IMG/VR virus record: IMGVR_UViG_3300015371_000011 | Span: 17,480-81,479 of that record | Length of the DNA: 64,000 bases | Reading direction: 5' to 3' (one strand) | From: a virus | Shown here: in pieces, positions 12,496-53,000 of the stretch | Position numbering within the stretch: the first letter of the stretch is position 1 | Layout: every line of letters begins with the position of its first letter | Program-made: the position numbers and the translations under genes | Notes under the pieces: generated by a model | Database searches by the model: none | What the model saw: the letters and a program-made list of their open reading frames with translations, nothing else | What the model was told of the DNA's origin: nothing

Positions 12496-12694
12496 ACGGC
12501 GCCAGCGCCCGCTCCGACATCACTTCTTCTATAAACTCGCCATCACGCAGCGCTTTGATTGCGCACAGATAACAGGCATACACCATATTACGCGCATCAC
12601 GGTAACGGATACGCCAGCACGCGGGTTTGGCCCCGCATATTTCACAGACAAGACGCGTGTCACCTCCACTATAAGAAAACGCTGCGGTATTCAT
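12479..12694 (-). CDS. Small zinc-ribbon protein, 71 aa
   Basis: LVCEICGAKPACWRIRYRDA and YACYLCAIKALRDGEF form paired CxxC motifs. It overlaps the next zinc-ribbon gene by 17 bases. The two may have arisen by duplication but are not clearly alike outside the cysteines. The function is unknown. Confidence 0.7.
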   Translation of the reverse strand: MNTAAFSYSGGDTRLVCEICGAKPACWRIRYRDARNMVYACYLCAIKALRDGEFIEEVMSERALAPYEKEK

Positions 12695-12703
12695 TCATCC
12701 CTT

Positions 12704-13576: not shown

Positions 13577-14544
13577 TGCCAATCTTCGCCTAGATAATCC
13601 TTGATGCGCTTCACCACGCCATCAACGGTAAGTCCGTACTTTTTGTGCGCCTCGTCCCTACCCCACGGCTCAAAGTGATACACGTCAGGTATGCCGACGC
13701 GCAGTAACGAATTAAGGTTGTCGGCATCATGCAGGACTTCGCTCACAATCGAGCCAAGGCCACCGCTCAAGAAATGTTCTTCTAGTGTGATGATATTTTT
13801 CTGGCCTACGTGCGCTAGAAATTCATCTTTATCAAAAGGCCATACCCGCGCCACATCGACTACGCCAAATTCTAATTTCTCCTTTAGAAAAAATTCGCTC
13901 ACCTTCAATGCCGTGTGCGTCATGATGCCTGACGAGACGATCCATGCATCACACTCGGACTTGCGCCAATTAGGATACAAAAACGTCAACGGCTTAAAGT
14001 CGTATTCGTCGGCCTTGTAGATATTCGGTATGCCTGCCCGATCAAATCTAATATATTTCGGCGTTAGCCGCTCATAGCTGAGTTTCGCCAATGCAGCGCC
14101 ACAGACTGAATCGGCTGGCGAGTATATCTCCAAGCCACAGCATGTGCGCATGATCGAAATGTCGTCCGCCGTATGATGCGACGGACCCATCTCCGCATAA
14201 GCATAGCCTGCACCCACACCAAGAATCGTAATAGGCAATTTCGAAGCACACACATCTAGCTTCACAAACTCATGGACATGACTGGTCGCAAACGGGGCGA
14301 TGCAGTACGTCCATACGCGTTTGCCTTCCTGCGCTAATCCAGATGCCATACCAATCATGTTTTGCTCGGCTATGCCTACCTGAATAAACTGGCGTGGCGT
14401 CTGCTCGACAAACTGATCGAGACTCGGTGCGCCATTGTCGGCGGTTATCAGAATGCAATTCGAGTCAGCTTTGAAAATATCGAATAGCGCATTGAAAAAG
14501 GCGTCGCGCTGGCCAATGATTCGCGGCGTTGCTTCGTAGCTCAT
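13573..14544 (-). CDS. Transketolase, C-terminal half (pyrimidine-binding subunit)
   Basis: The protein (323 aa) starts at the pyrimidine-binding domain: FIQVGIAEQNMIGMASGLAQ contains the conserved glutamate that activates thiamine diphosphate, and GAGYAYAEMGPSHHTADD follows. The C-terminal domain has WIVSSGIMTHTALKVSEFL and ITLEEHFLSGGLGS. With the gene upstream, which overlaps by 4 bases, it forms a two-subunit transketolase that moves two-carbon units between sugars. Split transketolases are frequent in sugar-modification clusters, and this setting argues for such a role instead of central metabolism. Confidence 0.88.
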   Translation of the reverse strand: MSYEATPRIIGQRDAFFNALFDIFKADSNCILITADNGAPSLDQFVEQTPRQFIQVGIAEQNMIGMASGLAQEGKRVWTYCIAPFATSHVHEFVKLDVCASKLPITILGVGAGYAYAEMGPSHHTADDISIMRTCCGLEIYSPADSVCGAALAKLSYERLTPKYIRFDRAGIPNIYKADEYDFKPLTFLYPNWRKSECDAWIVSSGIMTHTALKVSEFFLKEKLEFGVVDVARVWPFDKDEFLAHVGQKNIITLEEHFLSGGLGSIVSEVLHDADNLNSLLRVGIPDVYHFEPWGRDEAHKKYGLTVDGVVKRIKDYLGEDWQ

Positions 14545-15407
14545 TCCATGCCCAACTCTTTCTTGCTTTGCTCTAAGTCCGCGCCTAGGGGCGCTCTATA
14601 ATGCCAGAGCCGCACATCTTGCATTACGCTTGCCCCGTGGCCCTTGTCCGTATGCGCGATAACGCATAGCGGTTTGGTAATCAACGGCCAGTCACGAAAG
14701 CCTTCTAGCGACTTGAATATATCGTTGAAGTCATGCCCGTCACATTCTCTAATCTCACACCCAAATGCCGCTAGCTTATTTGCCAACGGGTCAAGGCCAG
14801 GCCCATCGGACGCATAGAGCAATTCATCGTGCATACCGATTGTCGCTTGCTTGTTGTTATCTACAATCAGAATCAGGTGGCCATACGCCCCTACCGCCGA
14901 CGACTCGTTGTATCGTCCACCCGCCGTGAATAGCGCCTCCCAATTGCTGCCCTCGTAAAGCTCGCCGTCACCGAGCAAGCAAAATATGAAATGCTTTTTG
15001 TTGGCAAGCCGTGCGGCGTGCGCCATGCCCAGGGCTATCGGCAAGCCATGCCCTAGCGATCCTGTCAGGACTTCAATCCCAGGCACGTTGTATTCAGCAT
15101 GCACGCCGAGAATGCCACCAGGGGATGCGAAGCGGTCTATCTCTTCTTCGCTGAAAAAACCCAAATCGGCTAGGATTGGATATAAGCCGAGTCCACCCTG
15201 CCCCTTTGAGAGAATGAATCTGTCACGCCCATCCCATTTCGGATTCTTCGGGTCTACGTTTAGAAGCCCACCGTAATAGAGCGCCACGGTCAACTCCATT
15301 TGCGAGAAGGCCGTGCTCACATGGCCCGACTCTTTTCTAACCGCCATCTCCAAAACCTGGCGCCGCATCTGGAGCGCCTTGCCTGCCAGAAACTCAACAT
15401 CAATCAC
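14541..15407 (-). CDS. Transketolase, N-terminal half (diphosphate-binding subunit)
   Basis: The thiamine diphosphate motif runs from GDGELYEGSNWEAL to LIVDNN about 30 residues later. Upstream are TALSQ-like FSQMELTVALYYGG and the loop GSLGHGLPIALGMAHAARL, typical for transketolase. The length (288 aa) is that of the N-terminal subunit alone. It is translated just before the C-terminal half, which fits assembly into one enzyme. Confidence 0.88.
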   Translation of the reverse strand: MIDVEFLAGKALQMRRQVLEMAVRKESGHVSTAFSQMELTVALYYGGLLNVDPKNPKWDGRDRFILSKGQGGLGLYPILADLGFFSEEEIDRFASPGGILGVHAEYNVPGIEVLTGSLGHGLPIALGMAHAARLANKKHFIFCLLGDGELYEGSNWEALFTAGGRYNESSAVGAYGHLILIVDNNKQATIGMHDELLYASDGPGLDPLANKLAAFGCEIRECDGHDFNDIFKSLEGFRDWPLITKPLCVIAHTDKGHGASVMQDVRLWHYRAPLGADLEQSKKELGME

Positions 15408-16344
15408 GATTCACCGCCTTTAATTCATCCACCAGCCATTCAAGGCTTTCAGTCAAACCAATCTTTGCCGTCCAGCCCGTCTCGATGCAAAACTTATCGC
15501 AATCGGGCACTGCGTAGAAAACATCCGTCGGCCGGCGCAGCGTCTCTTTCTCGTGCCACTCGGCATACACGGGCACAATGCGCCTTAGCTCGTCGGCTAT
15601 GCGCTGGATGCTGCACGGCTCCTCGCTACCGATATTGTAAACGCCCGGCCCGCATTTCGTGGCCGCGAGATAGTACGCCTTCACAATATCCCTCACATCA
15701 CAAAACGTACGCACGGGCGACAAATCGCCATGCTCAATCACATCCGTGTCGCCGCGTGAGAACTGCACGAGCTGATAGGCTAGCGACGTAGCCACCAGGT
15801 CGGGACGGCGCGGATTGATATAACCAAAGGCGCGCGTAATCACCAGCGGGAATCCTGCCATCATCGAATAGCAATTGGCGTAGTGCTCCTGACACGATTT
15901 CGTCACCGCATACGGGCTGCACGGATTGTGCGGCTGCTCTTCACGAATCGGGTTTTCTATCTGCGGCACATTGCCGTAAATCTCGGATGATGACGCCAAC
16001 ACTACCTTCGGCTTTAACCCGCTTTCGGCTATGGCGTGAAAGAGGTTAAGAGTACCGCCGACATTATTGGCTAGAAACAATTCAGGCTCAGCGAAACACC
16101 GCTTCACGTTGGCAATACCCGCCAAATGAATAATCACTTCGGGATTAGCGTTTTTTAAAGCACGAGCAATCTTTTCATTATCCGTTGCTAGATTTATTGG
16201 ATGTGAATAAACGTCAAGATACTTCGCCACTTCACCAGCTACAGGCTTGCGGCCGATGCCATACACCGTCTCGCCTGCCTCTTTTAGAAACTTGGCCTGA
16301 TAGTAGCCAACCGCGCCCGTGGCGCCGACGATAAGAAACCTCAC
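15400..16344 (-). CDS. NAD(P)-dependent SDR epimerase/dehydratase
   Basis: This is an extended short-chain dehydrogenase acting on nucleotide sugars. It has the Gly motif FLIVGATGAVGYYQAKFL, the LAGIANV strand, SSSEIYGNVP and the catalytic YAVTK. The C-terminal part (SPVRTFCDVRDIVKAYY, YNIGSEEP) is typical for GDP-mannose 4,6-dehydratase and GDP-4-keto-6-deoxymannose reductase relatives. The substrate cannot be fixed from sequence. It overlaps both neighbours by 4-8 bases. Confidence 0.82.
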   Translation of the reverse strand: MRFLIVGATGAVGYYQAKFLKEAGETVYGIGRKPVAGEVAKYLDVYSHPINLATDNEKIARALKNANPEVIIHLAGIANVKRCFAEPELFLANNVGGTLNLFHAIAESGLKPKVVLASSSEIYGNVPQIENPIREEQPHNPCSPYAVTKSCQEHYANCYSMMAGFPLVITRAFGYINPRRPDLVATSLAYQLVQFSRGDTDVIEHGDLSPVRTFCDVRDIVKAYYLAATKCGPGVYNIGSEEPCSIQRIADELRRIVPVYAEWHEKETLRRPTDVFYAVPDCDKFCIETGWTAKIGLTESLEWLVDELKAVNRD

Positions 16345-17306
16345 TTGCGCGCCACTCCCTGATTCTTTCTATACCAATCCACCGTCAACTTGAGTCCGTG
16401 ATGCAGGCTGGTGCGCGCCTCGAATCCCATATCACGCTTTGCCTTGCTCACGTCGAAACACCGCCGCGCCTGCCCGTTAGGCATGGTGTGGTCCCATGTA
16501 ATGCGGCCCTTAAAGCCTGTGATTTTCGCCAGCATCTTCACCACTTCGGCTATACTGTGCTCCTTGCCGCTCGATAGATTCACAATCTGCGGCTCGTCAT
16601 AGACTTCGGCAGCTTTCAATATCCCTTCGCAGACATCAGGCGCATAAATAAAATCGCGCGTAGCCGTGCCGTGGCCCCATAGGCTTAATACATCGGCGTT
16701 ATTGTCCACAGCCTCAACGAATCGACGCACCAATGCGGGTATGACGTGGCCCTGCTCCAGGTTAAACCAGTCGTGCGGCCCTTACAGATTGCCAGGTATC
16801 ACCACCACGCTAGGCAGACCGTACTGCGTATAAACGGCCTTGGCCTGCACGATTTGCATCCTTTTGGCTAACGAATACGGCGCGCTCTCTGGCTGCGGCA
16901 AGCCATTCCAGTAATCCTCTTCTTTGGTCGGTATAGGCGCATGCTCAGGATAGCCGCAGCCCGCCGATACTAGCACGGCTTTCTTGATGCCGTAGTCGTG
17001 CGCGTAATAGAGCAGGTGGGCGCTCATGGTCAGATTATCGTAAAAGAAATCCGCTGGCCGCTGCATGTTAGCGTTGATGCCGCCTACCAGGCCCGCCATG
17101 TGCACGAGCACCGTCGGCACCCGCTTAGTGTGGTGGTTGATATACAATTCTTCAACCTGATTCGCGTCTCTCAAGTCGTAAGCCTCGTGGCTAGGCCCAA
17201 CGATATACGCTTTGCGGTGCAGGCAGCGCATGGTGCGCTGAAAGTTTCTTCCAAGAAACCCTGCGGACCCTGTTAATAAAGTTTGGTGCTCGTCCCAGTT
17301 AAACAT
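16341..17306 (-). pseudogene. GDP-L-fucose synthase-like epimerase interrupted by an in-frame TAA
   Basis: The two halves are in the same frame and together give a full-length SDR of about 320 aa: LLTGSAGFLGRNFQRT, VLVHMAGLVGGINANM, SAGCGYPE and YSLAKR, as in GDP-fucose synthase (WcaG). The frame reads VIPGNL-TAA-GPHDWFNLEQGHVIPALVRR, where relatives have NLYGPHDNF. The TAA at 16782-16784 is thus one base away from the expected Tyr codon. The C-terminal half could only be made by readthrough or internal initiation. A sequencing error, a population variant or real decay are all possible. The ATG at 17306 has an AGGTGG upstream. Confidence 0.8.
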
Positions 17307-17347
17307 GGCCACCTAACCGAAACGGCGCGCCTTCGACGCCGACGCGC

Positions 17348-17536
17348 CTAGCCTCGGTGAATTTTCTCGGCTTCCTCCTTTGTGTTTATTTTCTTCTCTG
17401 ACACACCCGACATCTGAGCGCGTAGCCAATTGTCGTAGACTTCAAGCAGCATCACCTCGACGCCATTCGGCCATATCCCCTTTTGCGCACAGTGCTCCAG
17501 AAAGGCTTGCAGGCGGTCGCTAAAGCGTTGGCTCAT
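17348..17536 (-). CDS. Hypothetical protein, 62 aa
   Basis: This small helical protein (RFSDRLQAFLEHCAQKG, VMLLEVYDNWLRAQM) starts with an ATG two bases after the nuclease gene. I do not recognise a family, and there is no metal site or membrane segment. Confidence 0.55.
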   Translation of the reverse strand: MSQRFSDRLQAFLEHCAQKGIWPNGVEVMLLEVYDNWLRAQMSGVSEKKINTKEEAEKIHRG

Positions 17537-17538
17537 GA

Positions 17539-17916
17539 TTAAAACCTCTTGCCGCCTGCAAAGTTTAAAGGGATTTTGTGCTTAACGCTTTTCCATGCAA
17601 CCAAGCGGTCGGGTGCCCATGAGTACCAGATATAAACTTCAAGAATGTTATTCTGCTCAAGCAAGTCGAAAGTCCGCGCCTGATTCGGAGAAACGCTATC
17701 GTTTGGTCCTTTGACTTCAACGCCAATCGTCTTGCCGTTAAACCGCACTAAAAAATCAGGCCAGCTAGGACGATGGACCACCGTCCAATTATGGATATGC
17801 GCACGCTTGACAAAATCTTGCTCAGCAGGCACTAGCCGTTCAGGTATAACTTTAAAATTCTTTGCCTTTTTGATTTCCTTAGCGATGAATTTTCGCAAGC
17901 TAGGACTCAGGCTCAT
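17539..17916 (-). CDS. VRR-NUC-like PD-(D/E)XK nuclease, 125 aa
   Basis: WPDFLVRFNGKTIGVEVKGPND contains the PD...ExK catalytic pattern, followed by SPNQARTFDLLEQNN, the Q-rich helix typical of VRR-NUC domains. The N-terminus has a basic helix. Stand-alone VRR-NUC proteins are common in phages and act as structure-specific nucleases in replication or recombination. The gene overlaps its upstream neighbour by 4 bases. Confidence 0.75.
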   Translation of the reverse strand: MSLSPSLRKFIAKEIKKAKNFKVIPERLVPAEQDFVKRAHIHNWTVVHRPSWPDFLVRFNGKTIGVEVKGPNDSVSPNQARTFDLLEQNNILEVYIWYSWAPDRLVAWKSVKHKIPLNFAGGKRF

Positions 17917-18149
17917 TGATTCTCTCCGTTCTTAACAAGCCGCCCCATTACGCGATGAAACTCAAGACTCCACTTGCCATATTCTTTTACCCGCGAATAA
18001 ACCTCGTCCGCTAGTTTCTCGGCACGCGGTATTAGGCTATTGCGCCAGTCGATATAGTCACAGTTATGGACGTGCAAATCATTGCGCAGAACGGGTTGAC
18101 CGTTGCGATATTCAATCTTGCCCTCGGCACAGCTACAAAACACAGTCAT
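17913..18149 (-). CDS. Hypothetical protein, 78 aa
   Basis: It begins MTVFCSCAEGKIEYRNG and continues with DLHVHNCDYIDWRNSLIPRAEKLADEVY. The CSC and HxHNC groups could bind a metal, but no family is evident. It overlaps the upstream methyltransferase gene by 17 bases. Confidence 0.6.
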   Translation of the reverse strand: MTVFCSCAEGKIEYRNGQPVLRNDLHVHNCDYIDWRNSLIPRAEKLADEVYSRVKEYGKWSLEFHRVMGRLVKNGENQ

Positions 18150-19134
18150 TGGTAATAGCTTTCTCCGTCATCACAATCCTTGTCCCCTCTTTATGCACAT
18201 CCCAGCGGTTAAACCGCATGCCATAGTGAAAATGATCGACATACGGTATCTCGTATTGCGGCGGCGACTCCACGCGTATCGACAGGCCAGCCGTGTACTG
18301 ATCCTTGATCATAGCCCGTATCCCGCTGTTGTCGCCCACGTATGGCGGGCCGTAATCGCCGTCAGCCAGAATGAATGCCATATCGCGCCTATCGGCATCG
18401 TCAAACTTGACGCTGCGCTCATTGAGCACCTTATAGCCCGCCGCCTTTAATAGCGTGGACATCGACTCCCACGTAAAATTGCACTTATGCGCGAAATAGA
18501 AGGCGTCGCTCCAGTTTATAATTTGAAACGCGTGCGGCACCTCTAGGTAAACAATACCCTTCGGCTTCAGTATGGACTTCAAGCCGCGCATGACGGCGAG
18601 CGGGTCGCGGCAATGCTCTAGGACGTGCGACATGACGACTAGGTTGAAATCCAGCAGCCGCTCTTCACATAACTGCTCGATAGTTGTGCCATCGCCCATC
18701 GGCTCCACGCCGCACACGTCCAGATAGCCCGCCTCCTTAAACGCGTCCACGCCCTCATAGCTAGCCGCGCCAACGTCAAGAATATGGGCATTATGCTTCA
18801 CGTATGGTGCCACCATCTCGGCGCGTTTACGGTAGGCGGCAAACCTAGCCGCGCTATACGGCCGCTTATACGGCGGCTGCAATTCGGCCATGCGGGTAAA
18901 CCAATCGTCGGTAGGCGATAACGCGCGCCAGCTAAACGTGCATTGCTTGCAAATCACCGTCTGGTGCACGCATAAACGGCCGATATAGACACTTGCCGCC
19001 TCATCGAAGGCACTCACACCGCATATCGCGCACGAGCCGCGAAACACCAAATCGGCGTGCGCAATCGGATAGCGCGTTACTGGCTCGGCGGCGATGGCGG
19101 CTAAGCGGGCATCTTTGAAGTCGTGGGTTAACAT
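18133..19134 (-). CDS. SAM-dependent class I methyltransferase with N-terminal zinc site
   Basis: The N-terminal part holds CAICGVSAF and VICKQC, a zinc site like that of TylCIII/NovU-type sugar C-methyltransferases. The Rossmann domain shows ILDVGAASYEGVDAFKEAGY, CGVEPMGDG, then VVMSHVLEHCRDPLAVMRGL, as in the Methyltransf_23 group. The C-terminal domain of the C-methyltransferases is shortened. In this setting a nucleotide sugar or a glycan is the likely substrate. Zinc-site details are inferred. Confidence 0.75.
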   Translation of the reverse strand: MLTHDFKDARLAAIAAEPVTRYPIAHADLVFRGSCAICGVSAFDEAASVYIGRLCVHQTVICKQCTFSWRALSPTDDWFTRMAELQPPYKRPYSAARFAAYRKRAEMVAPYVKHNAHILDVGAASYEGVDAFKEAGYLDVCGVEPMGDGTTIEQLCEERLLDFNLVVMSHVLEHCRDPLAVMRGLKSILKPKGIVYLEVPHAFQIINWSDAFYFAHKCNFTWESMSTLLKAAGYKVLNERSVKFDDADRRDMAFILADGDYGPPYVGDNSGIRAMIKDQYTAGLSIRVESPPQYEIPYVDHFHYGMRFNRWDVHKEGTRIVMTEKAITNDCVL

Positions 19135-19268
19135 TTTTTCATATACACGAATCGGCTGGCCTTGGAGCAGTAGCCTTTATAGCCGCGCTTGGTCATAAAA
19201 CTTCTATCCACACGGCGGCGCATATCACGCCTGATTATCTCGCCGCACTTTGGACACAATAACTTCAC
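19128..19268 (-). CDS. Tiny zinc-finger protein, 46 aa
   Basis: A GTG start overlaps the stop of the glycosyltransferase upstream (GTGA), and the TAA overlaps the ATG of the methyltransferase downstream. The product reads VKLLCPKCGEIIRRDMRRRV and later GYCSKASRF, ending MKKC. Its CxxC pair and basic character resemble Ogr/Delta- or Com-like phage zinc-finger proteins. The perfect packing at both ends supports it as a real gene. Confidence 0.6.
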   Translation of the reverse strand: MKLLCPKCGEIIRRDMRRRVDRSFMTKRGYKGYCSKASRFVYMKKC

Positions 19269-20248
19269 GCCAACCCCGCAATCCGAAACATGCCCTTCCA
19301 GAATTGCCGCCCGTCAAATATCTCTTTGGCCTTTTTCGCGCCTGCCTCGGCTATCCTTGCCGCCTCATTTTGCCCTGGCCCTAAATAGTATTTGAGTCTA
19401 TCCACCAGCGTTGATGCGCCCTCGAAGCCAATGGCACCATTAGCCAGCAAGTGAAACGGCTCGCTGAATTTTACGTAATGCTTGAATTCATCTAATAGGC
19501 GCGGCGTCTCGTCGTTCGCGCTCTCCATCAACATTGCGCCGCATAAAGTCGCCTCAGACGTCCTGCCATTTAGGTGCTGAAACGTGACGGCACTGGTGAA
19601 ATTTAGCGTAATCTTGGATCGGCGCAGCAACCACGCATAGGCGTCGATGCTATCCACTTTCTGCCCGACGATGCCGCCGCCGCGAGTCACGGCTATGCCC
19701 ATACCATCAAGCCAGCCGAGATTGAGCGCACGGTCGAGACGGCCCGACGTACTGCCGATAAAGCTCAGCGGTATGTCGCGCTCGCCAAACGGCGCAGAAT
19801 AGAATATGCGCGGGTCTTTCGGCTCAGGCAGCCAAAACGTCTTGTCGGCAAACGACGTGAATTGTTTCCAGTGCTCGGCGGTATCGACAAACACATTGGC
19901 CGTGACGTGTGGCGCATACATATCGGCGTGCAGCACCACATTCGGCGCGCTCTCTAGCCACAGGCCAATGACGGGTATCTTGTAGCGGTCGCGCAGAAAG
20001 CGAAACAACTCAGGCTCGATATTGCCCGCAAAATTCACTAGCGGCGTTGCCACAATCAAGTCTGGATTCCAACCGCTGGCATACGCGGCCAGCGCCTTGT
20101 GGCCGTCCTCACTCACGTCAAACCAGTAGCGCTTAATATCAAATCCCAGCGCCTCGGCTGCACCGATTGAGCAATACTCGTGCGGTGATTGGCGTAAGTC
20201 GCTCTCATAGCCGTGCATCGTTTTGTGCGTGGCGAATAGGATTTTCAT
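19265..20248 (-). CDS. Glycosyltransferase, GT-B (CgeB-like)
   Basis: The ATG at 20248 overlaps the methyltransferase stop as ATGA and gives MKILFATHKTMHGYESD. The pattern PVIGLWLESAPNVVLHADM, NVFVDTAEHWKQF, FWLPEPKDPRIFY, IPLSFIGSTSGRLDRALNL, and FQHLNGRTSEATLCGAMLM is that of CgeB/spore-maturation-type glycosyltransferases (glycosyl transferase family 1_2). It probably uses a nucleotide sugar made by the pathway encoded nearby. Confidence 0.78.
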   Translation of the reverse strand: MKILFATHKTMHGYESDLRQSPHEYCSIGAAEALGFDIKRYWFDVSEDGHKALAAYASGWNPDLIVATPLVNFAGNIEPELFRFLRDRYKIPVIGLWLESAPNVVLHADMYAPHVTANVFVDTAEHWKQFTSFADKTFWLPEPKDPRIFYSAPFGERDIPLSFIGSTSGRLDRALNLGWLDGMGIAVTRGGGIVGQKVDSIDAYAWLLRRSKITLNFTSAVTFQHLNGRTSEATLCGAMLMESANDETPRLLDEFKHYVKFSEPFHLLANGAIGFEGASTLVDRLKYYLGPGQNEAARIAEAGAKKAKEIFDGRQFWKGMFRIAGLA

Positions 20249-20895
20249 GCGAATTTTAGGACTTCTTGCGCCATGCGTTTGGCAGCTATCTCGCAATATT
20301 TCTCTTCTATCTCGATACCAATAGCCTTGCGGCCCAAGTCCTTAGCGGCTCGCAATGTGGTTCCGCTGCCCATGAAGGGGTCAAGAATGGTTTCATCCTG
20401 CTGACAATAATTCGTCAAACACCAATTCATCAATTTTAATGGCTTCTGCGTCGGATGGTCTCGTAGTGTCTCTTTGCCTAACAAACCATTCCATTCAATT
20501 GTTATTTTTTTTACAGACTTACGATTGAATGAAGTCCAAGCTAATTCACAATCGCCAAAAGTTGGCATGGTGTTTAATTTATCCCAACTAATCCAATGGG
20601 TAGAGCGTGGCAACAAATCAGCAAAAAAATTACCGCCCCAAATAATAGCGTTTGATGCCATGTCTAAAATCATCAAAAAAATCTCTTGGCTAGGCCGTTC
20701 TGCGTCCCACGCATCAATGTACTGGCGTCGCCTAATAGGCGTGCCAAAGCCGCCAAAGCCGTCAAAGCCGTGTGACATACTCACACCATACGGCGGATCA
20801 GTCAGCACTAAATCCACCGGCTCAAGCTGCAGCAGTATTTCTCTACAATCCCCATGAAATATCGTCACCGCATCGTCCTGGTAATAGGGTTTCAT
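20245..20895 (-). CDS. DNA methyltransferase, DPPY type (N6-adenine)
   Basis: The catalytic LVLTDPPYGVSMSHG is near the N-terminus and the SAM-binding LDPFMGSGTTLRAAKDLGRKAIGIE near the C-terminus, the beta-class order. HPTQKPLKLMNW is also typical. The 216-aa protein has only a short recognition region. It overlaps the radical SAM gene by 4 bases. It likely protects phage DNA from host restriction. Confidence 0.9.
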   Translation of the reverse strand: MKPYYQDDAVTIFHGDCREILLQLEPVDLVLTDPPYGVSMSHGFDGFGGFGTPIRRRQYIDAWDAERPSQEIFLMILDMASNAIIWGGNFFADLLPRSTHWISWDKLNTMPTFGDCELAWTSFNRKSVKKITIEWNGLLGKETLRDHPTQKPLKLMNWCLTNYCQQDETILDPFMGSGTTLRAAKDLGRKAIGIEIEEKYCEIAAKRMAQEVLKFA

Positions 20896-23876
20896 AGCAA
20901 TAATATCTGCCCCGACTTGCGCCCGTAGAGCACGACTTCACGCGCAAACTTCTTCTTATCGCCGCCGTAATGCCACGGCGTGGGTATGCGCCACATCTGG
21001 TTTTCAATCACAGTGTCGTCGTACAGAAGCCCGCCCGTCTCGTCGTAGAATCCCGCCAAGTCATCGGCTGCCCTGAAAAATGTGGCCTCCTCTGGCCCCC
21101 AGTAAACCTCGCCGTACTCAGGCATGAGCGCCGCTATCGGCTCGCCACGCTCAAGCACGCCGTCAAGAATCTTATTGTACTCGGCCATCTCGTTGCGCCA
21201 GAAAGCGCCGTTGCTGTACATAATCGCTTCGATGAATGTGCTCGGCATAATACCCTTGGTAAGCAAGTCCTGCAGGATAAAAATACCCAACTTTAGCCCG
21301 TGCAGCGCCATAAAAATCCATGAAAAAATATTCATGCGCCGCCACTTGACTATGTCCATACTGCTCGTCTCGACAACCAAATCCTCATACTCGGCCAGAT
21401 AACCATCGGCCCGTACCGTGCCGTGAATCTCGGCTAACTCTATACGCCGTGTGCGGATACCAAACTGCGCCTGATAGTCGGGCCGGCCCATCTCGGTATT
21501 AGGCAAGGCCATCAGCGGGTAGATAAACACCTGCCCACTCATGCCAGCCGCCACGATCTCGTCCAGCCCCTGCTTCCACGTCTCGTATGTCTCACCCGGC
21601 AGCCCGACAATAAATTCGCTATATGTCGGCACGCCTTCGGCGTTGAAACGCTCCTGCAGCTTCTCGTAGGTAGACATTTTGATATTGCTGCGCTTGATAT
21701 TCTGCAGCACCGTGGCGTTGTTGCTTTGGCGTGCGAGCGTGACGCTTTTAGACATGCCTGCGTCGGCTAGCATCTTGCCTACGGCGTAAACCTTGTCGTC
21801 GGTGTTCTTGCCGTAATTGACGCGAAACCGCTGCGGATAGCCGTATTTCTCTTTGGTGGCTATCAGGTACTCGGCTATTTCACGGTCGCGTGCGAGCATG
21901 CCAAAATTCGACGCGCTCCCAAGTGCATACGGGATTTTATTACGCCCCAACCATTCAATCTCCGCAAATACTCGGTCTAGTCCATAGTAGCTCATCTTGT
22001 GTTGCCCAAGTCCATATTCGCAGAATGAACAATTTTCACAGAGCAACCCGTTAGCAAAAAAATTATGATTCGGCGTAGCTTCAACAATATCATAAACTCG
22101 CCGATGCTCGCTTGGCGAAATCTCTTCTACTGCACACCAAGAAACCTTTGCAGTCGTTGCACCATCGCTTCGTTCAACTTGTCGTCGTTCCAAATCACAA
22201 AAATCTCCCAACCGAAATATTGATAATCTGCCGCTTCCATTTCCACGTCCTTTTCCTCTTGGTGCCAATAACGACCATGAGCGAGAATCGCTTTTCTTAC
22301 TCCCTTTTTGCAGTGGATAAAATCTGGATTGCGACAACCTCCCGATACTCCCGGCCCCAACCAAAATGTCCTGTCGCCAGTATATTTGAATGGCAGTTGA
22401 TACTGTTGAAAAAATTTTATCAGCTTGCTCTCGAAACCATTCGGCGGCTCGCCAGCCTTTAAAAAATGAGCGGCATGCCATTGCGGATCGTTCCAATATT
22501 GCCGCATCTTTTGCTTCCACGATTCGATCATTTGCTTGTGCTTGATTGGATCTAACCGTCGCATCGGATTGTTGTCGCCAGTTTGCCATGCGTAACCGAG
22601 CCTCTTGCTTGTTTCCACCCCTTTCCTCGCATGTGCTAGTCGTTGTTCTCGACTCATTCGCCGCATTGGACTGTTGTCGCCAGTGAATTTCAGGTAGTGC
22701 CCCATTGCTCGTTGCGTTGCTACCACCTTCGCTACGTGTTCTGGCGATTTCTTTATTCCCTTGTTCATACCCGGATGTCTGTAGAGACCCGCTGCTGCTG
22801 CCCTCTTTATCCCCTCTATTCGCCGCTCTTCGCCTCCGCTTTGCTTCCGACTTGCTGCAGCTTTGATTCCCCGGAGTCTTTGCACTTCCAACGGAGTCGT
22901 TAATACTCTCTGTCTCAAGTGCGGCAGATAGCACCCCATCGAACAATACATCCTCTCTTTTGGCCGATGATCTATCGACGTTCCACAACCCTTGCAAAAT
23001 CTTGTCGCCGACTTTAAGGTCGCCTGCTGTAACCCATCCCCTGTCGGTGTAAAAAGGATGATCTCTAGTTGCTCCAATTTCAGAACCTCCCGCTACTATC
23101 TTGATGGTTTCCTTAATGCCGCTACAAATCGAAAATGCGACTCTATTCCACGCAAGGCATTCGTCTTTCTCATTCCAACCTAAAATATAATCACCGGACT
23201 GCACTGCTTCTATATTTTTTTGCCCTGTTTGAGTAACTACCACCGTTCCTTCCGCGAGACACATAAATGGGCATCCGCGATCCTGCTCCAAGACGTAGCT
23301 ATACTCTATTGGCTCTGGATGCTGCTCCAATAACCCGTCAAATAAGCCGGTCAACGCGGGCGACGGCAATTCATTCAACTCTTTCTGAAACGGATAATCC
23401 TGAGCGCAGTAGTGCACATCATTGTCTCGATACGTTATCTGCGGGATACCTTCAAAGTCCGTGCTGTGAGTTTCCGCCCAACGCTTTAATACGGCAGTAA
23501 ACGCCTGCTCACCCGCGCGTCTGACAGCTACGTCGATAAATGGATGCTTGGATAAATACTCAATGGCGTTATCGGGCACCTGCAATCCACCAAACACAAT
23601 CAGGCACTCAGGCCAACGGCGTTTCACTTCGGCGGCTACTGCCAGGTTTAATTGCTCATTCCACACCGCCACAGAGAAAGCCGCCACGTCCACACGGTTG
23701 TCATAGTGCTTGAGAATATTGGCCGGCTTATCCACGCAGTAAAGAAAATCGCCAAACTCGTAATTGGCCTTGATGTCGTCATTCTGCTCGGCATAGGCGC
23801 GCAGCAATCCCGTAGCCAGCGGCAAGTAGCAGTTGCGGCCGAGCCTGATGTTATATTCGTTTAGGACTACGCGCAT
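20892..23876 (-). CDS. Radical SAM protein with B12-binding-like N-terminus, interrupted by an intein
   Basis: The 994-codon frame encodes a 584-aa enzyme plus a 410-aa intein. The N-terminal part (VAAFSVAVWNEQLNLAVAAEV, LIVFGGLQVPDNAIEYL) is a cobalamin-type Rossmann domain. The cluster motif is GCPFM|CSFCEYG: the intein sits directly before the second cysteine of CX3CX2C, so no active enzyme exists until it is spliced out. Downstream are TLARQSNNATVLQNIKRSNI, EFIVGLPGETYETW and a C-terminal helical domain. It probably modifies a substrate of the sugar block. Confidence 0.9.
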   Translation of the reverse strand: MRVVLNEYNIRLGRNCYLPLATGLLRAYAEQNDDIKANYEFGDFLYCVDKPANILKHYDNRVDVAAFSVAVWNEQLNLAVAAEVKRRWPECLIVFGGLQVPDNAIEYLSKHPFIDVAVRRAGEQAFTAVLKRWAETHSTDFEGIPQITYRDNDVHYCAQDYPFQKELNELPSPALTGLFDGLLEQHPEPIEYSYVLEQDRGCPFMCLAEGTVVVTQTGQKNIEAVQSGDYILGWNEKDECLAWNRVAFSICSGIKETIKIVAGGSEIGATRDHPFYTDRGWVTAGDLKVGDKILQGLWNVDRSSAKREDVLFDGVLSAALETESINDSVGSAKTPGNQSCSKSEAKRRRRAANRGDKEGSSSGSLQTSGYEQGNKEIARTRSEGGSNATSNGALPEIHWRQQSNAANESRTTTSTCEERGGNKQEARLRMANWRQQSDATVRSNQAQANDRIVEAKDAAILERSAMACRSFFKGWRAAEWFREQADKIFSTVSTAIQIYWRQDILVGAGSIGRLSQSRFYPLQKGSKKSDSRSWSLLAPRGKGRGNGSGRLSIFRLGDFCDLERRQVERSDGATTAKVSWCAVEEISPSEHRRVYDIVEATPNHNFFANGLLCENCSFCEYGLGQHKMSYYGLDRVFAEIEWLGRNKIPYALGSASNFGMLARDREIAEYLIATKEKYGYPQRFRVNYGKNTDDKVYAVGKMLADAGMSKSVTLARQSNNATVLQNIKRSNIKMSTYEKLQERFNAEGVPTYSEFIVGLPGETYETWKQGLDEIVAAGMSGQVFIYPLMALPNTEMGRPDYQAQFGIRTRRIELAEIHGTVRADGYLAEYEDLVVETSSMDIVKWRRMNIFSWIFMALHGLKLGIFILQDLLTKGIMPSTFIEAIMYSNGAFWRNEMAEYNKILDGVLERGEPIAALMPEYGEVYWGPEEATFFRAADDLAGFYDETGGLLYDDTVIENQMWRIPTPWHYGGDKKKFAREVVLYGRKSGQILLL
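22032..23261 (-). mobile_element. Intein in the radical SAM CX3CX2C motif, with an out-of-frame endonuclease inside
   Basis: The 410-codon element spans residues 206-615 of the precursor. Block A is CLAEGTVVVTQTGQKNIEAV, block B is GATRDHPFYTDRGWVTAG, block F is RRVYDIVEATPNHNFFANG and the C-terminal splice site is CEN|C. Splicing parts are thus canonical class 1. The central roughly 280 residues in this frame are low-complexity, rich in R, S, E, Q and A, and match no endonuclease. The same bases in another frame encode one (22127-23077). Confidence 0.92.
22127..23077 (-). CDS. Homing endonuclease (zinc finger, NUMOD3-like repeats, Vsr-like domain) overprinted on the intein
   Basis: This 316-aa protein is read in the +1 frame relative to the intein and lies entirely inside it. 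The start is TTG with GGGAGG eight bases upstream. An N-terminal zinc site has C28, C31, C45 and C49. NUMOD3-like repeats follow (GMNKGIKKSPEHV, GDNSPMRRMSREQR, GDNNPMRRLD). The catalytic part has GFESKLIKFF, NPDFIHCKKG, GRYWHQE and FGWEIFVIWNDD, the E-D-x-H pattern of the Vsr-like EDxHD family. Its TAG lies just before intein block F. It would cut an intein-free allele to spread the intein. Confidence 0.88.
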   Translation of the reverse strand: MEQLEIILFTPTGDGLQQATLKSATRFCKGCGTSIDHRPKERMYCSMGCYLPHLRQRVLTTPLEVQRLRGIKAAASRKQSGGEERRIEGIKRAAAAGLYRHPGMNKGIKKSPEHVAKVVATQRAMGHYLKFTGDNSPMRRMSREQRLAHARKGVETSKRLGYAWQTGDNNPMRRLDPIKHKQMIESWKQKMRQYWNDPQWHAAHFLKAGEPPNGFESKLIKFFQQYQLPFKYTGDRTFWLGPGVSGGCRNPDFIHCKKGVRKAILAHGRYWHQEEKDVEMEAADYQYFGWEIFVIWNDDKLNEAMVQRLQRFLGVQ

Positions 23877-25234
23877 GACGACACACCCGTTATCATTGCA
23901 TCCATCTGTACTCGCACAATCCGCGACACAGGCTTGACCGCCTTCTTCAGCACTTCGAAAATATACCGCATGTGCTCTTCGTTAAGCCCAGGATGCACGC
24001 CAACGAAAAAGCCGCCATGCATGATTCTGTCCGTATTTGCCAAGGTGCCGTGCACACGGTGCGTAATGCCGCTAAACGCGGGTTGGCGTAGCAGGTTGCC
24101 CGCGAATATCGGCCGCGTCTCAATCTTAGCGGCCTCTAACGCCGCTATGATTTCACGCGTAGGCACGCCGCTGTTATTGATTAGCGGGTAAGCATACGGC
24201 GACGGGTCGGCGCGTGAATCCCACTTTGACAATATGAAATAGTCAGCCAACTCGGCGCGGCACATGGCGTGCAGCGTGTTGAAGTTTTCTTGCCGCTTGC
24301 CGATGATCGTGCCTAGTTTATCAAACTGAGCACACAGCACCGCCGCCTGCATATCGGTTGCCTGCATATTGTAGCCGATATTTGAATACTGATATTTGTG
24401 ATCGGTCCCTGGCGGCAATCCTGGCGTGTCCCATTCAAACCGCTTGCCGCAGGTATTTTCTTTGCCTGGCGCGCAGTAGCACGACCGACCCCATTGCGAG
24501 ATTGAGCGTGCTGCTATTTTCAATTTAGGGTTATTGACGATGACGCTGCCCGCCTCGCCGCAAGTCGTATGGTGCGCAGGGTAGTGGCTCAGAGATGCCA
24601 TGTCGCCGAAGGTGCCAGTCAGCATGCCGTCAAACCTAGAGCCTAGCGCATCGCAATTGTCCTCTAAGAACAACAAGCCATTCTTGGCACAGAAATATTT
24701 CACCGCGGCGCAATCAAACGGCAGGCCCATCGGGTGCGGTAGCATGACGGCGCGCGTCCTTGGCCCAACTGCACTAACAATGTCCGTGAATGTCGGGTTA
24801 TAGGTGCCAAGACCCACGTCCACGAATACAGGCACAAGCCGATTTTGAATAATCGGCGCTAGCGTAGTCGGGAATCCCGCCGCCACGGTTATAACTTCAT
24901 CGCCATCCTGCAGCGGCCTAAGTCCGTATTGCGCAATGTCCTTGCTGCATACCGTGGCAAGCATGAGCAGGTTGGCCGATGAGCCGCTATTGACGAGCAA
25001 GACGTCGCGCGCGCCAAAATACTTGATCATGGACGTCTCGAATTGCTCCGTCCACTTGCCCGCCGTCATCCATTGCGACAATGCCACGTCTATCAGGTTG
25101 AGCGTTTCCTGTTCGTCAAAGAAATGCTTGCTGTAGTGGATCTTTGTCTGGCCTGGGATGAAGTCCTGCGGCGTGTGCAACGCCTGCACGAATTTCTTAG
25201 CCAAGTCCCAGATCAACTCAACGGTGGCGTCCAT
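23867..25234 (-). CDS. rfbH: RfbH-type NDP-4-keto-6-deoxyhexose 3-dehydrase (E1)
   Basis: This iron-sulfur, PMP-dependent enzyme removes the C3 hydroxyl of a nucleotide 4-keto-6-deoxyhexose. The DegT fold is clear: VLLVNSGSSANLLMLATV, DEVITVAAGFPTTLAPIIQN, FLEDNCDALGSRFDG. In place of the PLP lysine the sequence is SHYPAHHTTCGEAG, with the diagnostic His of the dehydrases. The [2Fe-2S] cysteines are in GRSCYCAPGKENTCGKRF. The ATG at 25234 was chosen since longer versions overlap the upstream gene. It is the best evidence that the block makes a 3,6-dideoxy or branched deoxysugar. Confidence 0.9.
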   Translation of the reverse strand: MDATVELIWDLAKKFVQALHTPQDFIPGQTKIHYSKHFFDEQETLNLIDVALSQWMTAGKWTEQFETSMIKYFGARDVLLVNSGSSANLLMLATVCSKDIAQYGLRPLQDGDEVITVAAGFPTTLAPIIQNRLVPVFVDVGLGTYNPTFTDIVSAVGPRTRAVMLPHPMGLPFDCAAVKYFCAKNGLLFLEDNCDALGSRFDGMLTGTFGDMASLSHYPAHHTTCGEAGSVIVNNPKLKIAARSISQWGRSCYCAPGKENTCGKRFEWDTPGLPPGTDHKYQYSNIGYNMQATDMQAAVLCAQFDKLGTIIGKRQENFNTLHAMCRAELADYFILSKWDSRADPSPYAYPLINNSGVPTREIIAALEAAKIETRPIFAGNLLRQPAFSGITHRVHGTLANTDRIMHGGFFVGVHPGLNEEHMRYIFEVLKKAVKPVSRIVRVQMDAMITGVSSCA

Positions 25235-25259
25235 TATCGCCGCCCGCCCATGACCTTGC

Positions 25260-25496
25260 TCATTTACCAACCTCATTGAGCCATTCGGTCGCTTTTTCGA
25301 GCACGGTGAGGAATCCACCTTCATAAACTCGGTCGCCATATTTAACGGTGCAGGACGGTGATAGATCAGCAAATGTGCGCACCGTTATATTCACCGCTAA
25401 CGGCCATTTATAACCCTTACCCGAAAGTGCGCTGTCAGATTGCCGTGTCGTCACAACACATAGCGCCGCCAAGAATTCATCGACAACCTTACTCAT
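25260..25496 (-). CDS. Hypothetical protein, 78 aa
   Basis: The ATG lies just after the SDR stop; a TTG six bases upstream would overlap it. The protein reads SKVVDEFLAALCVVTTRQSDSAL, then a beta-rich middle (LAVNITVRTFADLSPSCTVKY) and a helical end. I do not recognise a family. It stands between two sugar genes. Confidence 0.6.
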   Translation of the reverse strand: MSKVVDEFLAALCVVTTRQSDSALSGKGYKWPLAVNITVRTFADLSPSCTVKYGDRVYEGGFLTVLEKATEWLNEVGK

Positions 25497-25498
25497 TT

Positions 25499-26530
25499 TC
25501 AATCCTTCTCATTACAATAATACTCGTACGTCCGTCGCAGCCCATCATCCAGCGACACGGCTGGCGGCGGCGCTAACTTCAATATCTTGCTGGTATCGGG
25601 CCGCCTGCGGCTCGGCGCATCGCTTAACCGCTCCTGATTGTCCACATGCTTCATTTCGAGTTTCGGGAATAGCGCCTGCGCCGTCCAGCCAAAGGCGTTG
25701 ATCGACACCTCGCTATTGCCGTCGCCCACGTTATAGGCTTCACCATTCTCACCGTCGAGCAGCACGGCCATGAATTGCAGCACGGCATCGCTGATATAAA
25801 CGAATGAGCGCGTAGCACGGCCGTCGCCGTAAATGGTTAGCGGCGTCTCCGTCATTAGCGCCTGCATGAGCTGAGGCACTAGGCGACCATCGTCTACGGC
25901 TTCGCCCGGCCCGTAGATATTAAACGGTCGCACCACCTTTACGGGCACGCCATGCATCTTGTGGTAAATCTGGCATAGTGTCTCGCTTAACCGCTTGCTT
26001 TCGTCATACGGGCTTGATGGCCCCGTAAACGAGCAATTGCCCCAATACGTTTCTGGCGTGGGTATAAACAGCGCAAACGGATCGCCGTAAACCTGCACGC
26101 TTGAAAAATGCAGCACCGCCTTGGAGCGTGACTCCAGCGCCAACCCCAGAATCACCTTAGTCAAGTCCACGTTAGCTTCAATCGTCTCTAACGGCTTTTC
26201 TAAGTACATTTTGGCCGACGCTATGGACGCTAGGTGAATGTAATAATCGGCCCCCGCCGCGCCCATATAGGCCAGCGGCGCCTCACACTGGAGCAGCTTG
26301 ACGTCCGTACCCCGCACGACGCGACTAGGGGCAATCATCGTGTCATAGCCCGTAACCTTGACGGACTTCTTGAAATATGTCTCGTTGGCGTAGGCAACCA
26401 GGCCCATCAGGTAGCTGCCGACAAACCCCGCGGCGCCAGTAATAAATACCTTGGCCCCCGCTAAATCCTTGAAAGTAGGCGTGATGGCATCGAGGATGCT
26501 GTCATAGTCGGATTGTAAGACGGGATTCAT
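25499..26530 (-). CDS. NAD(P)-dependent SDR epimerase/dehydratase, 343 aa
   Basis: The Gly motif is KVFITGAAGFVGSYLMGL. HLASIASAKMYLEKPLETIEANV, SSVQVYGDP and the catalytic YDESKRLSET follow, then VVRPFNIYGPGEAVDDGRLV. This is typical of UDP-glucuronate decarboxylase and dTDP-glucose 4,6-dehydratase relatives. The substrate is not certain. It could supply the 4-keto-6-deoxy intermediate to RfbH or a decarboxylated pentose. Confidence 0.82.
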   Translation of the reverse strand: MNPVLQSDYDSILDAITPTFKDLAGAKVFITGAAGFVGSYLMGLVAYANETYFKKSVKVTGYDTMIAPSRVVRGTDVKLLQCEAPLAYMGAAGADYYIHLASIASAKMYLEKPLETIEANVDLTKVILGLALESRSKAVLHFSSVQVYGDPFALFIPTPETYWGNCSFTGPSSPYDESKRLSETLCQIYHKMHGVPVKVVRPFNIYGPGEAVDDGRLVPQLMQALMTETPLTIYGDGRATRSFVYISDAVLQFMAVLLDGENGEAYNVGDGNSEVSINAFGWTAQALFPKLEMKHVDNQERLSDAPSRRRPDTSKILKLAPPPAVSLDDGLRRTYEYYCNEKD

Positions 26531-32430: not shown

Positions 32431-32693
32431 TTCTTCCCCTCGGCTTGGGCGACTATGGCCTCTACACGCTTTTGAAAATGTTTAGCAACGCAATCATCCT
32501 CAGTGCAATCCCTATGGTCCGGTAAAAAAAACAACGCTTCTCGAAGCACCGTGGTGAGTTCCCGCAGCGCGGCGGCAATGGCGTTGACGCTCGCCTCATA
32601 GTCGGCCTTACACTCAGGCCTCCAATCGGGCATCGAGCAGTAACGGCAATGATCGGCCAACTCACGCGCCTTTTTTTCCGCATCATCGCTCAT
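32427..32693 (-). CDS. Hypothetical protein with cysteines, 88 aa (paralogue of next gene)
   Basis: The protein begins MSDDAEKKARELADHCRYCS and has NAIAAALRELTTVLREAL in the middle. HCRYC and CTEDDC could form a metal site. It shares its start and central helix with the gene that follows. The two overlap by 4 bases. Confidence 0.6.
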   Translation of the reverse strand: MSDDAEKKARELADHCRYCSMPDWRPECKADYEASVNAIAAALRELTTVLREALFFLPDHRDCTEDDCVAKHFQKRVEAIVAQAEGKK

Positions 32694-32887
32694 AATCCCG
32701 CCTTGGCCGGCGTATCGGCCAGCTCCGCGTCCACGGCGGCATCCACTTCGTCAATAATGCGCATGGCATGGGCAATAGCAGCTGCATCGCTCCAAACTGG
32801 GGTGCCACCTATAAGTGCTGCCGCCAGCTGCGCTACTTTGGTCTTGTACGCCGCGATGTCAGGTGAGTCGGTTTTGAGTTTTTTCAT
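32690..32887 (-). CDS. Hypothetical helical protein, 65 aa
   Basis: The ATG at 32887 (MKKLKTDSPDIAAYKTKVAQ) overlaps the stop of the tiny membrane gene as ATGA, so I prefer it over the GTG four codons upstream. The rest is helical and acidic (MRIIDEVDAAVDAELAD). No family is recognised. Confidence 0.6.
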   Translation of the reverse strand: MKKLKTDSPDIAAYKTKVAQLAAALIGGTPVWSDAAAIAHAMRIIDEVDAAVDAELADTPAKAGL

Positions 32888-32955
32888 GTCATTAACCACA
32901 ATACCGTCATAAAAAAACCCACGCCGAGCGCAAAACTGAGCACTATATTTCTCAC
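32884..32955 (-). CDS. 23-aa single-pass membrane peptide
   Basis: The GTG overlaps the stop of the AMP-binding gene (GTGA) and the TGA overlaps the next ATG. The product VRNIVLSFALGVGFFMTVLW ends LMT and is one membrane span. The exact double overlap supports it. Confidence 0.5.
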   Translation of the reverse strand: MRNIVLSFALGVGFFMTVLWLMT

Positions 32956-33647
32956 GGCACCCTCCCGTCGTGCATCAGCTCGCCGCTAGGTAGCCAATGG
33001 CCCGTGTCGTCGCTGAAATACCAACCATCCACAAATTTTCTCTCCGTCAATTCTGGGTCGTTATAATAACCCTCGGCCATATAAGGCGACTTGACAACGA
33101 TCTGTTTAGCTACGAGCGATACCTCAACACCCGCAACCGGCTGACCCACCGGCAAGCGACCCTCTCCTATCGGCTGATCGCCTGTCACGATCTTGCGGCA
33201 AATTATATTCGCTTCACTGCACGCATAGCGATTAACGAACACCGCATTGGGGCACACACGCCGGCCTAGCTCCACGTCGCCCCAGTCAACCATCTCACCG
33301 CCCACTTCCAAGACCTCGACGCTAGGGTATTGGTAAATGCCCTGCGCCACCCACCTAAACGTCGTAGCCAATAGACTCAAATGCGTGATCTGCTCCTGAT
33401 TGATCCATGTGCGGAGACTTATTGTCTCGTGCCCCGGATAGATCGCCAGACGCGCACCCGACGCACGTGCCCAATACAGTTTTCTAAACCCGCCCATGCT
33501 CCAGCGATCGATGTTGATGATTGATTTGTGGTTGATATTGAGGTCGGCGGCGTCCACCTTGCCCATTTCGATGAACGCCGCCTCACTGCATAGGACACGC
33601 TTCGGTTTCCCGGTCGTGCCCGAAGTCTCGAAGATAAAGTCAATCAT
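32952..33647 (-). CDS. Truncated adenylate-forming (ANL) enzyme core, 231 aa
   Basis: This family activates carboxylic acids with ATP. The protein starts at motif A3, FETSGTTGKPKRVL, and carries A5 (NRYACSEANI), A6 (GRLPVGQPVAGVEV), A7 (YFSDDTGHW) and the beginning of A8 (GELMHDGR), where it stops. The usual N-terminal roughly 150 residues and the C-terminal lid with the A10 lysine are absent. Start and stop overlap neighbours by 4 bases, so the gene has settled at this size. What it acts on, if anything, is unknown. Confidence 0.8.
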   Translation of the reverse strand: MIDFIFETSGTTGKPKRVLCSEAAFIEMGKVDAADLNINHKSIINIDRWSMGGFRKLYWARASGARLAIYPGHETISLRTWINQEQITHLSLLATTFRWVAQGIYQYPSVEVLEVGGEMVDWGDVELGRRVCPNAVFVNRYACSEANIICRKIVTGDQPIGEGRLPVGQPVAGVEVSLVAKQIVVKSPYMAEGYYNDPELTERKFVDGWYFSDDTGHWLPSGELMHDGRVP

Positions 33648-33979
33648 CTCATTAACGGATCGTCGGTGCCGGCCACGCCCACCTTGAATTTATCGTAAGC
33701 GGGATTCTGCAATATCCGCTTATCCACAGCATCATTGACGGCCACCTTTGCCTTAGCCGCGTCCTCCGACGTACCGCTGGCAAGCGCCCTAGCCGCAATG
33801 CCACGGATCTCGCTCCATGTTAGCGCGAACGCCTCCTGCTCCTGCGCCGTGCCCTCAAGCCGCAGATTGTGGCTAATCATAGTTGCCTGTGCGAGCTTGA
33901 CGGCCTGCAAGATCGCAAACAGATAATCGTTGGCCGCAGCAATCTCCTGACTCGGCGGTGGACTCGCTATATAACCCAT
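33644..33979 (-). CDS. Hypothetical helical protein, 111 aa
   Basis: The protein is almost wholly helical (AANDYLFAILQAVKLAQATM, EEQ-type helix, TWSEIRGIAARALASG). It overlaps the ANL gene by 4 bases. One possibility is a carrier or scaffold for that enzyme, but no phosphopantetheine DSL motif is seen. Confidence 0.6.
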   Translation of the reverse strand: MGYIASPPPSQEIAAANDYLFAILQAVKLAQATMISHNLRLEGTAQEQEAFALTWSEIRGIAARALASGTSEDAAKAKVAVNDAVDKRILQNPAYDKFKVGVAGTDDPLMR

Positions 33980-52144: not shown

Positions 52145-52184
52145 AGGCGTGGACCTACCTTTCTTTTTGTGCTACAGATGCTTC

Positions 52185-53000
52185 ATGCCAAAAGGAACAG
52201 ATTTGACGAGTGATCAAAGACTTGAAATCGTCAAACTTTACCAAAGTGGCACGCCCGTTAAGGACATCATTCATCAACTGAATTTGCACGTTAATACCAT
52301 TTACAGACAGCTTCGTCGGGCAAACATTCATGGAGCACAGCAACATCCAAAACCATTTGATGCAGCTATTTTTGACCCTGCACAAGAATCAGGTGCATAC
52401 TGGATTGGATTTTTCACGGCCGATGGGCACATTGATAAAAGCGGACAATTCCGATTAAAGCTAAGCCTCAACGACATTGAACATCTCCAAGCCTTTGTAA
52501 AATTTATCGGTATAGATCGAAAAATAGATACTGGAGTGTCGCCCGCACGACCTGGATTCTGTGCTGAAACTTCGTATTGTCGAATTTGGTTTAGCAACCA
52601 CGCGTTGAAAGACGCGTTTTTCTCTCTTGGAATCGCGCGACTCAAGACCGATAGAAACCCTGTTAGAATGCTCGCTGAAAACCGCCACTTCTGGCGTGGC
52701 GTTATTGATGCCGACGGTTGGCTTGGAGATACTGGACCGACTGCGCCTCGAATAACTTTGACGAGCACCGAGACAATTTGTAATGGGTTGCTTACCTTTG
52801 CCGAAAGTCATTTTACCGAATTGAAATCGCTCACACGGTTTAAAGGCACTGGCGCCTATCAGGTTGGACAGAAACAAAACCACCGAGTCGAGTTTGTGTT
52901 GCAGAAAGCCCATAAGCTAATTGACGTCCTTTATGCCGATTCCCACGTTTACCTACCCCGTAAGAAACTCATTGCCGACCGAATACTTGCTGCAAAATAG
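52185..53000 (+). CDS. LAGLIDADG homing endonuclease, free-standing, 271 aa
   Basis: This is on the strand opposite to its neighbours. The N-terminus is a helix-turn-helix (TSDQRLEIVKLYQSGTPVKD, IIHQLNLHVNTIYRQLRRAN). ESGAYWIGFFTADGHIDKSG and FWRGVIDADGWLGDTG are the two LAGLIDADG motifs, spaced by about 100 residues. A GTG at 52149 would add 12 residues. The gene fills exactly the space between tail tube and tail terminator genes. Confidence 0.9.
   Translation: MPKGTDLTSDQRLEIVKLYQSGTPVKDIIHQLNLHVNTIYRQLRRANIHGAQQHPKPFDAAIFDPAQESGAYWIGFFTADGHIDKSGQFRLKLSLNDIEHLQAFVKFIGIDRKIDTGVSPARPGFCAETSYCRIWFSNHALKDAFFSLGIARLKTDRNPVRMLAENRHFWRGVIDADGWLGDTGPTAPRITLTSTETICNGLLTFAESHFTELKSLTRFKGTGAYQVGQKQNHRVEFVLQKAHKLIDVLYADSHVYLPRKKLIADRILAAK

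Follow-up and report, generated by a model that had tools for sequence, protein, structure and literature searches.

A half-size adenylate-forming enzyme gene in a tailed phage

The window analyzed here is a stretch of 64,000 nucleotides (positions 17,480 to 81,479) of the virus record IMGVR_UViG_3300015371_000011, and our subject is a gene on its reverse strand that encodes the core of an ANL (adenylate-forming) enzyme in 231 amino acids (aa). The record is that of a tailed phage, as judged from its matches to a large terminase (phrog_979, 5.5e-92), a portal (phrog_113, 1e-61), and tail protein J (phrog_31, 1e-78). An annotation made from the sequence alone (the original prediction) had described the open reading frame (ORF) as an ANL core from which both the N-terminal third and the C-terminal lid are gone. 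We recovered exactly this ORF, which starts with ATG and retains motifs A3, A5, A7, and the first residues of A8 (Table 1).

Profile searches define what the encoded protein keeps and what it lacks. The AMP-binding profile PF00501 matches at 7.2e-16 with 58.4 bits, above its curated cut-off of 29.9. Residues 8–195 align to profile positions 170–384 of 384; the first ~165 positions are therefore missing. The NCBIfam models TIGR01733 (AA-adenyl-dom, the A domain of nonribosomal peptide synthetases, NRPS; 9.1e-25, 87.3 bits vs a curated cut-off of 317) and TIGR01923 (menE; 3e-18, 65.9 bits vs 330) score far below these thresholds, as half a protein would be expected to do. At the other end, the sequence stops after HDGRVP, i.e., A8 is broken off directly after GR, at the hinge that has been defined as GRxD in a study that also assigns the motif roles (PMC11253843). 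The protein consequently has neither the Asp of the hinge nor the lysines of A8 and A10.

Neither missing part was found in the six frames of the whole 81,479-base virus record. PF00501 gave a single AMP-binding match and none to the N-terminal A1–A2 region (profile positions 1–165), and the lid (PF13193, AMP-binding_C) gave no match at E ≤ 10. For the original prediction, an upstream frameshift whose correction restored a full-length enzyme would have been the refutation. We reject this explanation, since the three forward upstream frames contain no ANL N-lobe and the space is occupied by an independent gene with its own strong ribosome-binding site, AAGGAGG, ahead of its ATG.

The gene was also said to be sealed at both ends by 4-base overlaps with other genes. 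Both overlaps are present, namely ATGA with the upstream 111-aa gene and GTGA downstream, but the downstream partner comprises only 23 codons and is weaker evidence than had been implied. Codon usage in the frame of the ANL ORF is phage-gene-like (0.148, against −0.129 and −0.148 for the two alternative frames). We therefore take the ORF to be a real gene of the phage, encoding an ANL core reduced to a minimum by loss of the N-terminal subdomain and the mobile lid. The 111-aa upstream protein has no confident Pfam or PHROG match, and adjacency is the sole support for a role as partner of the ANL protein.

Table 1. Positions of the ANL-core gene, its motifs, and the genes that overlap it (window coordinates).
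Feature	Position	Strand	Basis or remarks
ANL (adenylate-forming) minimal core, 231 aa, A3 to A8 hinge, without N-lobe and lid	32952..33647	−	ORF list, PF00501, NCBIfam, AF2, Foldseek
Motif A3 / P-loop TSGTTGKPK, residues 8–16	33600..33626	−	T8, G10, T12, G13, K16 invariant in 45-sequence alignment
Motif A5 YACSE, residues 141–145	33213..33227	−	E145 at least 90% conserved in 45-sequence alignment
Motif A7 YFSDD; D214 is the Asp that binds ribose	33006..33020	−	D214 at least 90% conserved in 45-sequence alignment; invariant in another alignment
Motif A8 start (G228-R229-V-P), truncation point at hinge	32955..32966	−	Alignments; GRxD hinge definition from PMC11253843
Upstream 111-aa gene with own Shine-Dalgarno AAGGAGG; ATGA overlap with ANL start	33644..33979	−	ORF list
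23-codon ORF, hydrophobic, membrane-helix-like (VRNIVLSFALGVGFFMTVLWLMT); GTGA overlap with ANL stop	32884..32955	−
Next gene in overlap chain, MKKLKTDS..., 65 aa; ATGA overlap with 23-codon ORF	32690..32887	−

Relatives of the window protein

The nearest relatives of the window protein are bacterial enzymes of the NRPS, DltA, and MenE types, with ~30% identity and all of full length. In a maximum-likelihood tree it lies inside the bacterial full-length enzymes, within the NRPS/DltA-type branch (support 99/98) and as sister to a Nostoc domain (95/86), at the tip of a long end branch. This Nostoc domain belongs to an adenylation-carrier protein of 719 aa that was the best match among plasmid records (30%, 5e-18). 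Our first alignment was too diverse to serve as the basis of a profile scan. Peptide-pattern searches returned no relative from viral contigs and, from genomes, only a generic A6–A7 stretch of a full-length Fictibacillus enzyme.

Matches of 20–35% identity were obtained by tblastn against the phage collection, but we rejected them as true phage relatives: the three that we examined, L008–L010, are all full-length enzymes (448–508 aa) in unverified metagenome scaffolds, that of L008 adjoining a dlt-type gene, and the further matches may be bacterial carry-over. A search through the neighboring exonuclease recovered 11 related loci, none of which carries an ANL gene. In 149 Bacillota genomes, all 45 matches to the window protein lay in frames of at least 378 aa; this control covers a single phylum, and its query method differed from that of the viral scan described below.

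Short ANL genes in other phages

The original prediction proposed looking for other stand-alone short ANL proteins in phages, and such proteins do exist in viral contigs. Scanning for the A3 motif yielded 76 distinct DNA stretches from three scans; three of these (L072, L073, L093) are chance matches, and the others read as ANL-like frames, some cut by contig ends. Ten of the ANL-like stretches hold closed frames no longer than 260 aa, which fall into three phage groups: group B (L030/L034/L062; 248 aa, ending in GRHSE), group C (L066/L080/L081, 229 aa with A3 at residue 6; L069/L071/L090, 245–248 aa), and group D (L087; 210 aa). These ORFs (210–248 aa) start near A3 and end around A8, with group C retaining ~13 residues more of A8 than the window protein, its Lys included. 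The PF00501 match begins at position 167–170 in all ten, and no lid exceeds the cut-off in any of their records; the group D record gives a weak one, which falls within its second, 488-codon ANL frame.

The surroundings of the short genes differ between the groups. Group C adjoins a T4-like clamp loader (phrog_168, 1.5e-82) and group D adjoins T4-like terminases, i.e., both have a tailed-phage context. The short ANL gene of group D overlaps the second, full-length one, and in group B a full-length ANL gene lies ~4.5 kb from the short one; group C records contain neither a lid nor a second ANL. Acetyltransferase-like genes neighbor the short genes of group B (phrog_1249, 1.4e-5) and, weakly, those of group C (E 0.04–0.05). 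These proteins of uncultured marine phages, together with the viral model A0A6J5L770 of the BFVD library, cover the same span as the window protein but do not form a single clade with it. Groups B and C and an N-lobe-less group A had no match among 50,697 phage records, the short phage ANL genes have no PHROG of their own, and the open-access literature yielded nothing relevant on phage-encoded ANL proteins.

A larger set of viral ANL frames, of ~320–370 aa, lacks the N-lobe only. Those of L038, L067, and L092 lie beside Trp-halogenase genes and show an A10-like C-terminus by eye, although Pfam detected no lid in L038, the one checked; those of L086 and L101, and similarly L100, have a Pfam lid and lie in sugar- or carrier-type cassettes. 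In L038 (1992–5226), L092 (5948–8727), and L067 (95–2267), a gene for an N-lobe-less ANL of ~320–330 aa directly follows that for a flavin-dependent Trp-halogenase, and in L038 and L092 a small gene without Pfam match comes after the pair; this gene set is a possible phage biosynthetic module. No ANL is annotated beside the halogenase in the two cultured phages that we examined (HTVC008M and S-WAM1). The cassettes of L101 (43–2694) and L086 (2317–4855) combine an ANL gene with genes for a carrier protein (matched by Pfam in L101 and recognized by eye in L086), a short-chain dehydrogenase, and acyl/aminotransferase-like proteins, resembling sugar N-acylation pathways.

Independent truncation and selection

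Topology tests were used to compare separate and common origins of the short form. Forcing the six lidless short rows together cost 38.8 log units (p-AU = 0.001), and forcing only the window protein and group C together cost 32.1 log units (p-AU = 0.011). These tests reject a common origin of the lidless form, within the limits that long branches set to the test, which argues for independent truncation in separate phages. In group C, the ratio of nonsynonymous to synonymous substitution rates (dN/dS) was 0.18–0.29 for pairs at dS of 0.24–0.99 (0.19–0.29 in most of them), and the lidless protein is therefore under purifying selection in this group. Group B provides no test of selection because its copies are identical.

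These findings support both the observation and the modest interpretation of the original prediction, and add two points: phages that are unrelated also have the cut-down form, and at least one of their groups keeps it under selection. Since similar forms were reached separately in unrelated marine phages, the half-size enzyme gene of this soil-type phage is suggested to be a useful part rather than debris.

Predicted structure and known systems

In ANL structures, the first third contributes the greater part of one large sheet out of two, and the nucleotide site and acid pocket lie in the part that the window protein keeps. AlphaFold2 (AF2), run with a 45-sequence alignment, predicted an ANL half-core (pLDDT 93.2, pTM 0.89). 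With this model, Foldseek returned 590 PDB matches at E ≤ 0.001, the best being NRPS A domains (6p3i/6oyf; E 1e-17, TM 0.86–0.88 on query); solved MenE structures also matched. In the viral library, five ANL-like models were found at E ≤ 0.001, one of which has 214 aa (BFVD A0A6J5L770).

The closest known counterpart is the NRPS A-domain core (Acore; e.g., the teixobactin Txo1 A domain and GrsA PheA), which provides the best structural and NCBIfam matches and shares the tree branch. However, a natural Acore has ~400 aa with A1–A7 and is joined by an Asub lid, whereas the window protein lacks A1–A2 and A9–A10. Asp235 of PheA aligns with Met51, and a standard alpha-amino acid is therefore not expected as substrate. 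Several local stretches are like MenE (o-succinylbenzoate-CoA ligase) of Aeromonas (L025), but MenE usually has 440–490 aa and a lid; in the window phage we noticed no genes for menaquinone. Engineered lid-less constructs (PqsA, NpsA, LgrA F-A-delta-sub, and the FadD23 N-domain) are cut at the hinge, as is the window protein. Yet these are man-made, keep the N-lobe, and in the case of FadD23 are inactive, in contrast to a natural protein that has no N-lobe.

Possible function of the minimal core

ANL enzymes are textbook two-domain machines in which rotation of the lid drives both half-reactions, with A3 serving the ATP phosphates, A5 the adenine and Mg, and A7 the ribose. For the window protein, the original prediction had suggested that it may bind ATP and an acid but stop short of the full reaction, or may work with a host carrier. 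The explanation that we favor, tentatively and from sequence, is a functional minimal core that would perform the first half-reaction or present an adenylate to a partner. The retained P-loop, A5, and A7 residues most likely still allow such a core to bind ATP and a small acid. The acyl-adenylate may form slowly or with help from the partner, and would be handed over to, and consumed by, another protein, so that only the first half-reaction takes place and no domain alternation is needed. In other phages the partner may be the acetyltransferase-like protein or full-length ANL encoded next to the short one; in the window phage it could be a host protein or one yet to be recognized. Crystal structures of the lid-less PqsA core contain bound acyl-AMP (PMC11253843).

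A broader proposal, namely that tailed phages have repeatedly evolved half-size ANL proteins (A3 to A8 only) that activate acids without N-lobe or lid and pass the adenylate straight to a partner with no domain alternation, is rather unlikely in our estimate. Natural, selected proteins that dispense with both lid and first third would show how small the ANL fold can be and still work. Phage short ANL genes can now be recognized by their span, from A3 to A8 in 210–250 aa.

Several observations weigh against a working core. The A10 Lys, normally the catalyst of adenylation, is lost. As a control for the structure prediction, an A3–A8 slice of a 501-aa enzyme (L075) was modeled equally confidently (pLDDT 93.9); the AF2 model is hence no proof of a stable stand-alone protein, and we rejected its confidence as evidence to that effect. 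What modeling shows is that the A3–A8 segment is predicted to be a coherent fold, from which evolved stand-alone stability does not follow. By Pfam, the record contains no carrier protein (PF00550, E ≤ 1), GNAT, or halogenase, and the link to a halogenase or carrier module that some phage ANLs have is not present here. The dN/dS of the window gene is not measurable because it has no close relative in the viral, phage, or genome collections. Finally, removal of the C-terminal domain leaves FadD23 of Mycobacterium tuberculosis with almost no activity (PMC9989471).

The loss of the A10 Lys and of the whole lid, the inactivity of the FadD23 N-domain alone (PMC9989471), and the retained nucleotide-contact residues would suit a protein that has given up catalysis and only binds ATP and/or an acid or acyl-adenylate, as a sensor, sink, or inhibitor of a host ANL/NRPS enzyme. 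We regard this as possible, if somewhat unlikely: the phosphate-binding P-loop TSGTTGKPK, which contacts the ATP phosphates, is conserved in full, beyond what pure binding of AMP or acyl-AMP would need, and an inhibitory target is without direct support.

Because the window gene has no relatives with which to prove selection, we also considered a settled remnant, i.e., a captured bacterial A domain that was shortened by deletion, whose frame is open by chance and whose product has no important role. Its isolation in the viral, phage, and genome collections, its long end branch inside bacterial full-length enzymes, and the in-frame stop in a captured fucose-synthase-like gene of the same phage are all consistent with such a history. 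This is unlikely, however, given motifs intact over the full 231 codons, ATGA and GTGA overlaps on both sides, phage-like codon usage, and the recurrence of the A3–A8 span in unrelated phages, one group of which is under purifying selection. A split enzyme, with the lid and/or N-lobe supplied in trans by an unrecognized phage protein (e.g., the 111-aa neighbor) or a host ANL enzyme, would parallel the full-length ANLs encoded near the short ones in groups B and D but is highly improbable, as the window's record has no AMP-binding_C match, the 111-aa protein cannot be assigned to a family with confidence, and group C does with neither a lid nor a second ANL.

Other genes of the phage record

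A sugar-type island of ~17 kb (9901–26530, reverse strand) contains two B12-radical-SAM proteins, a transketolase whose N and C halves are encoded by separate genes, several NAD epimerases/dehydratases, and a full RfbH that scores above its cut-off. The KedN5-like B12-radical-SAM gene at 20892–23876 (reverse strand; 994 aa) carries an intein of ~400 aa inside its CxxxCxxC iron-sulfur motif (GCPFM / CLAEG...LLCEN / CSFC). The GDP-fucose-synthase-like gene at 16341–17312 (reverse strand) is one frame except for a single in-frame stop, which reflects a recent nonsense change, recoding, or an assembly error. A ParB-like protein (phrog_2579, 2e-37) is encoded at 3–1484 (reverse strand) near the portal and terminase. 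On the opposite strand, an ORF at 52149–53000 resembles by eye a free-standing LAGLIDADG homing endonuclease (WIGFFTADGH ... FWRGVIDADGW) with a helix-turn-helix-like start.
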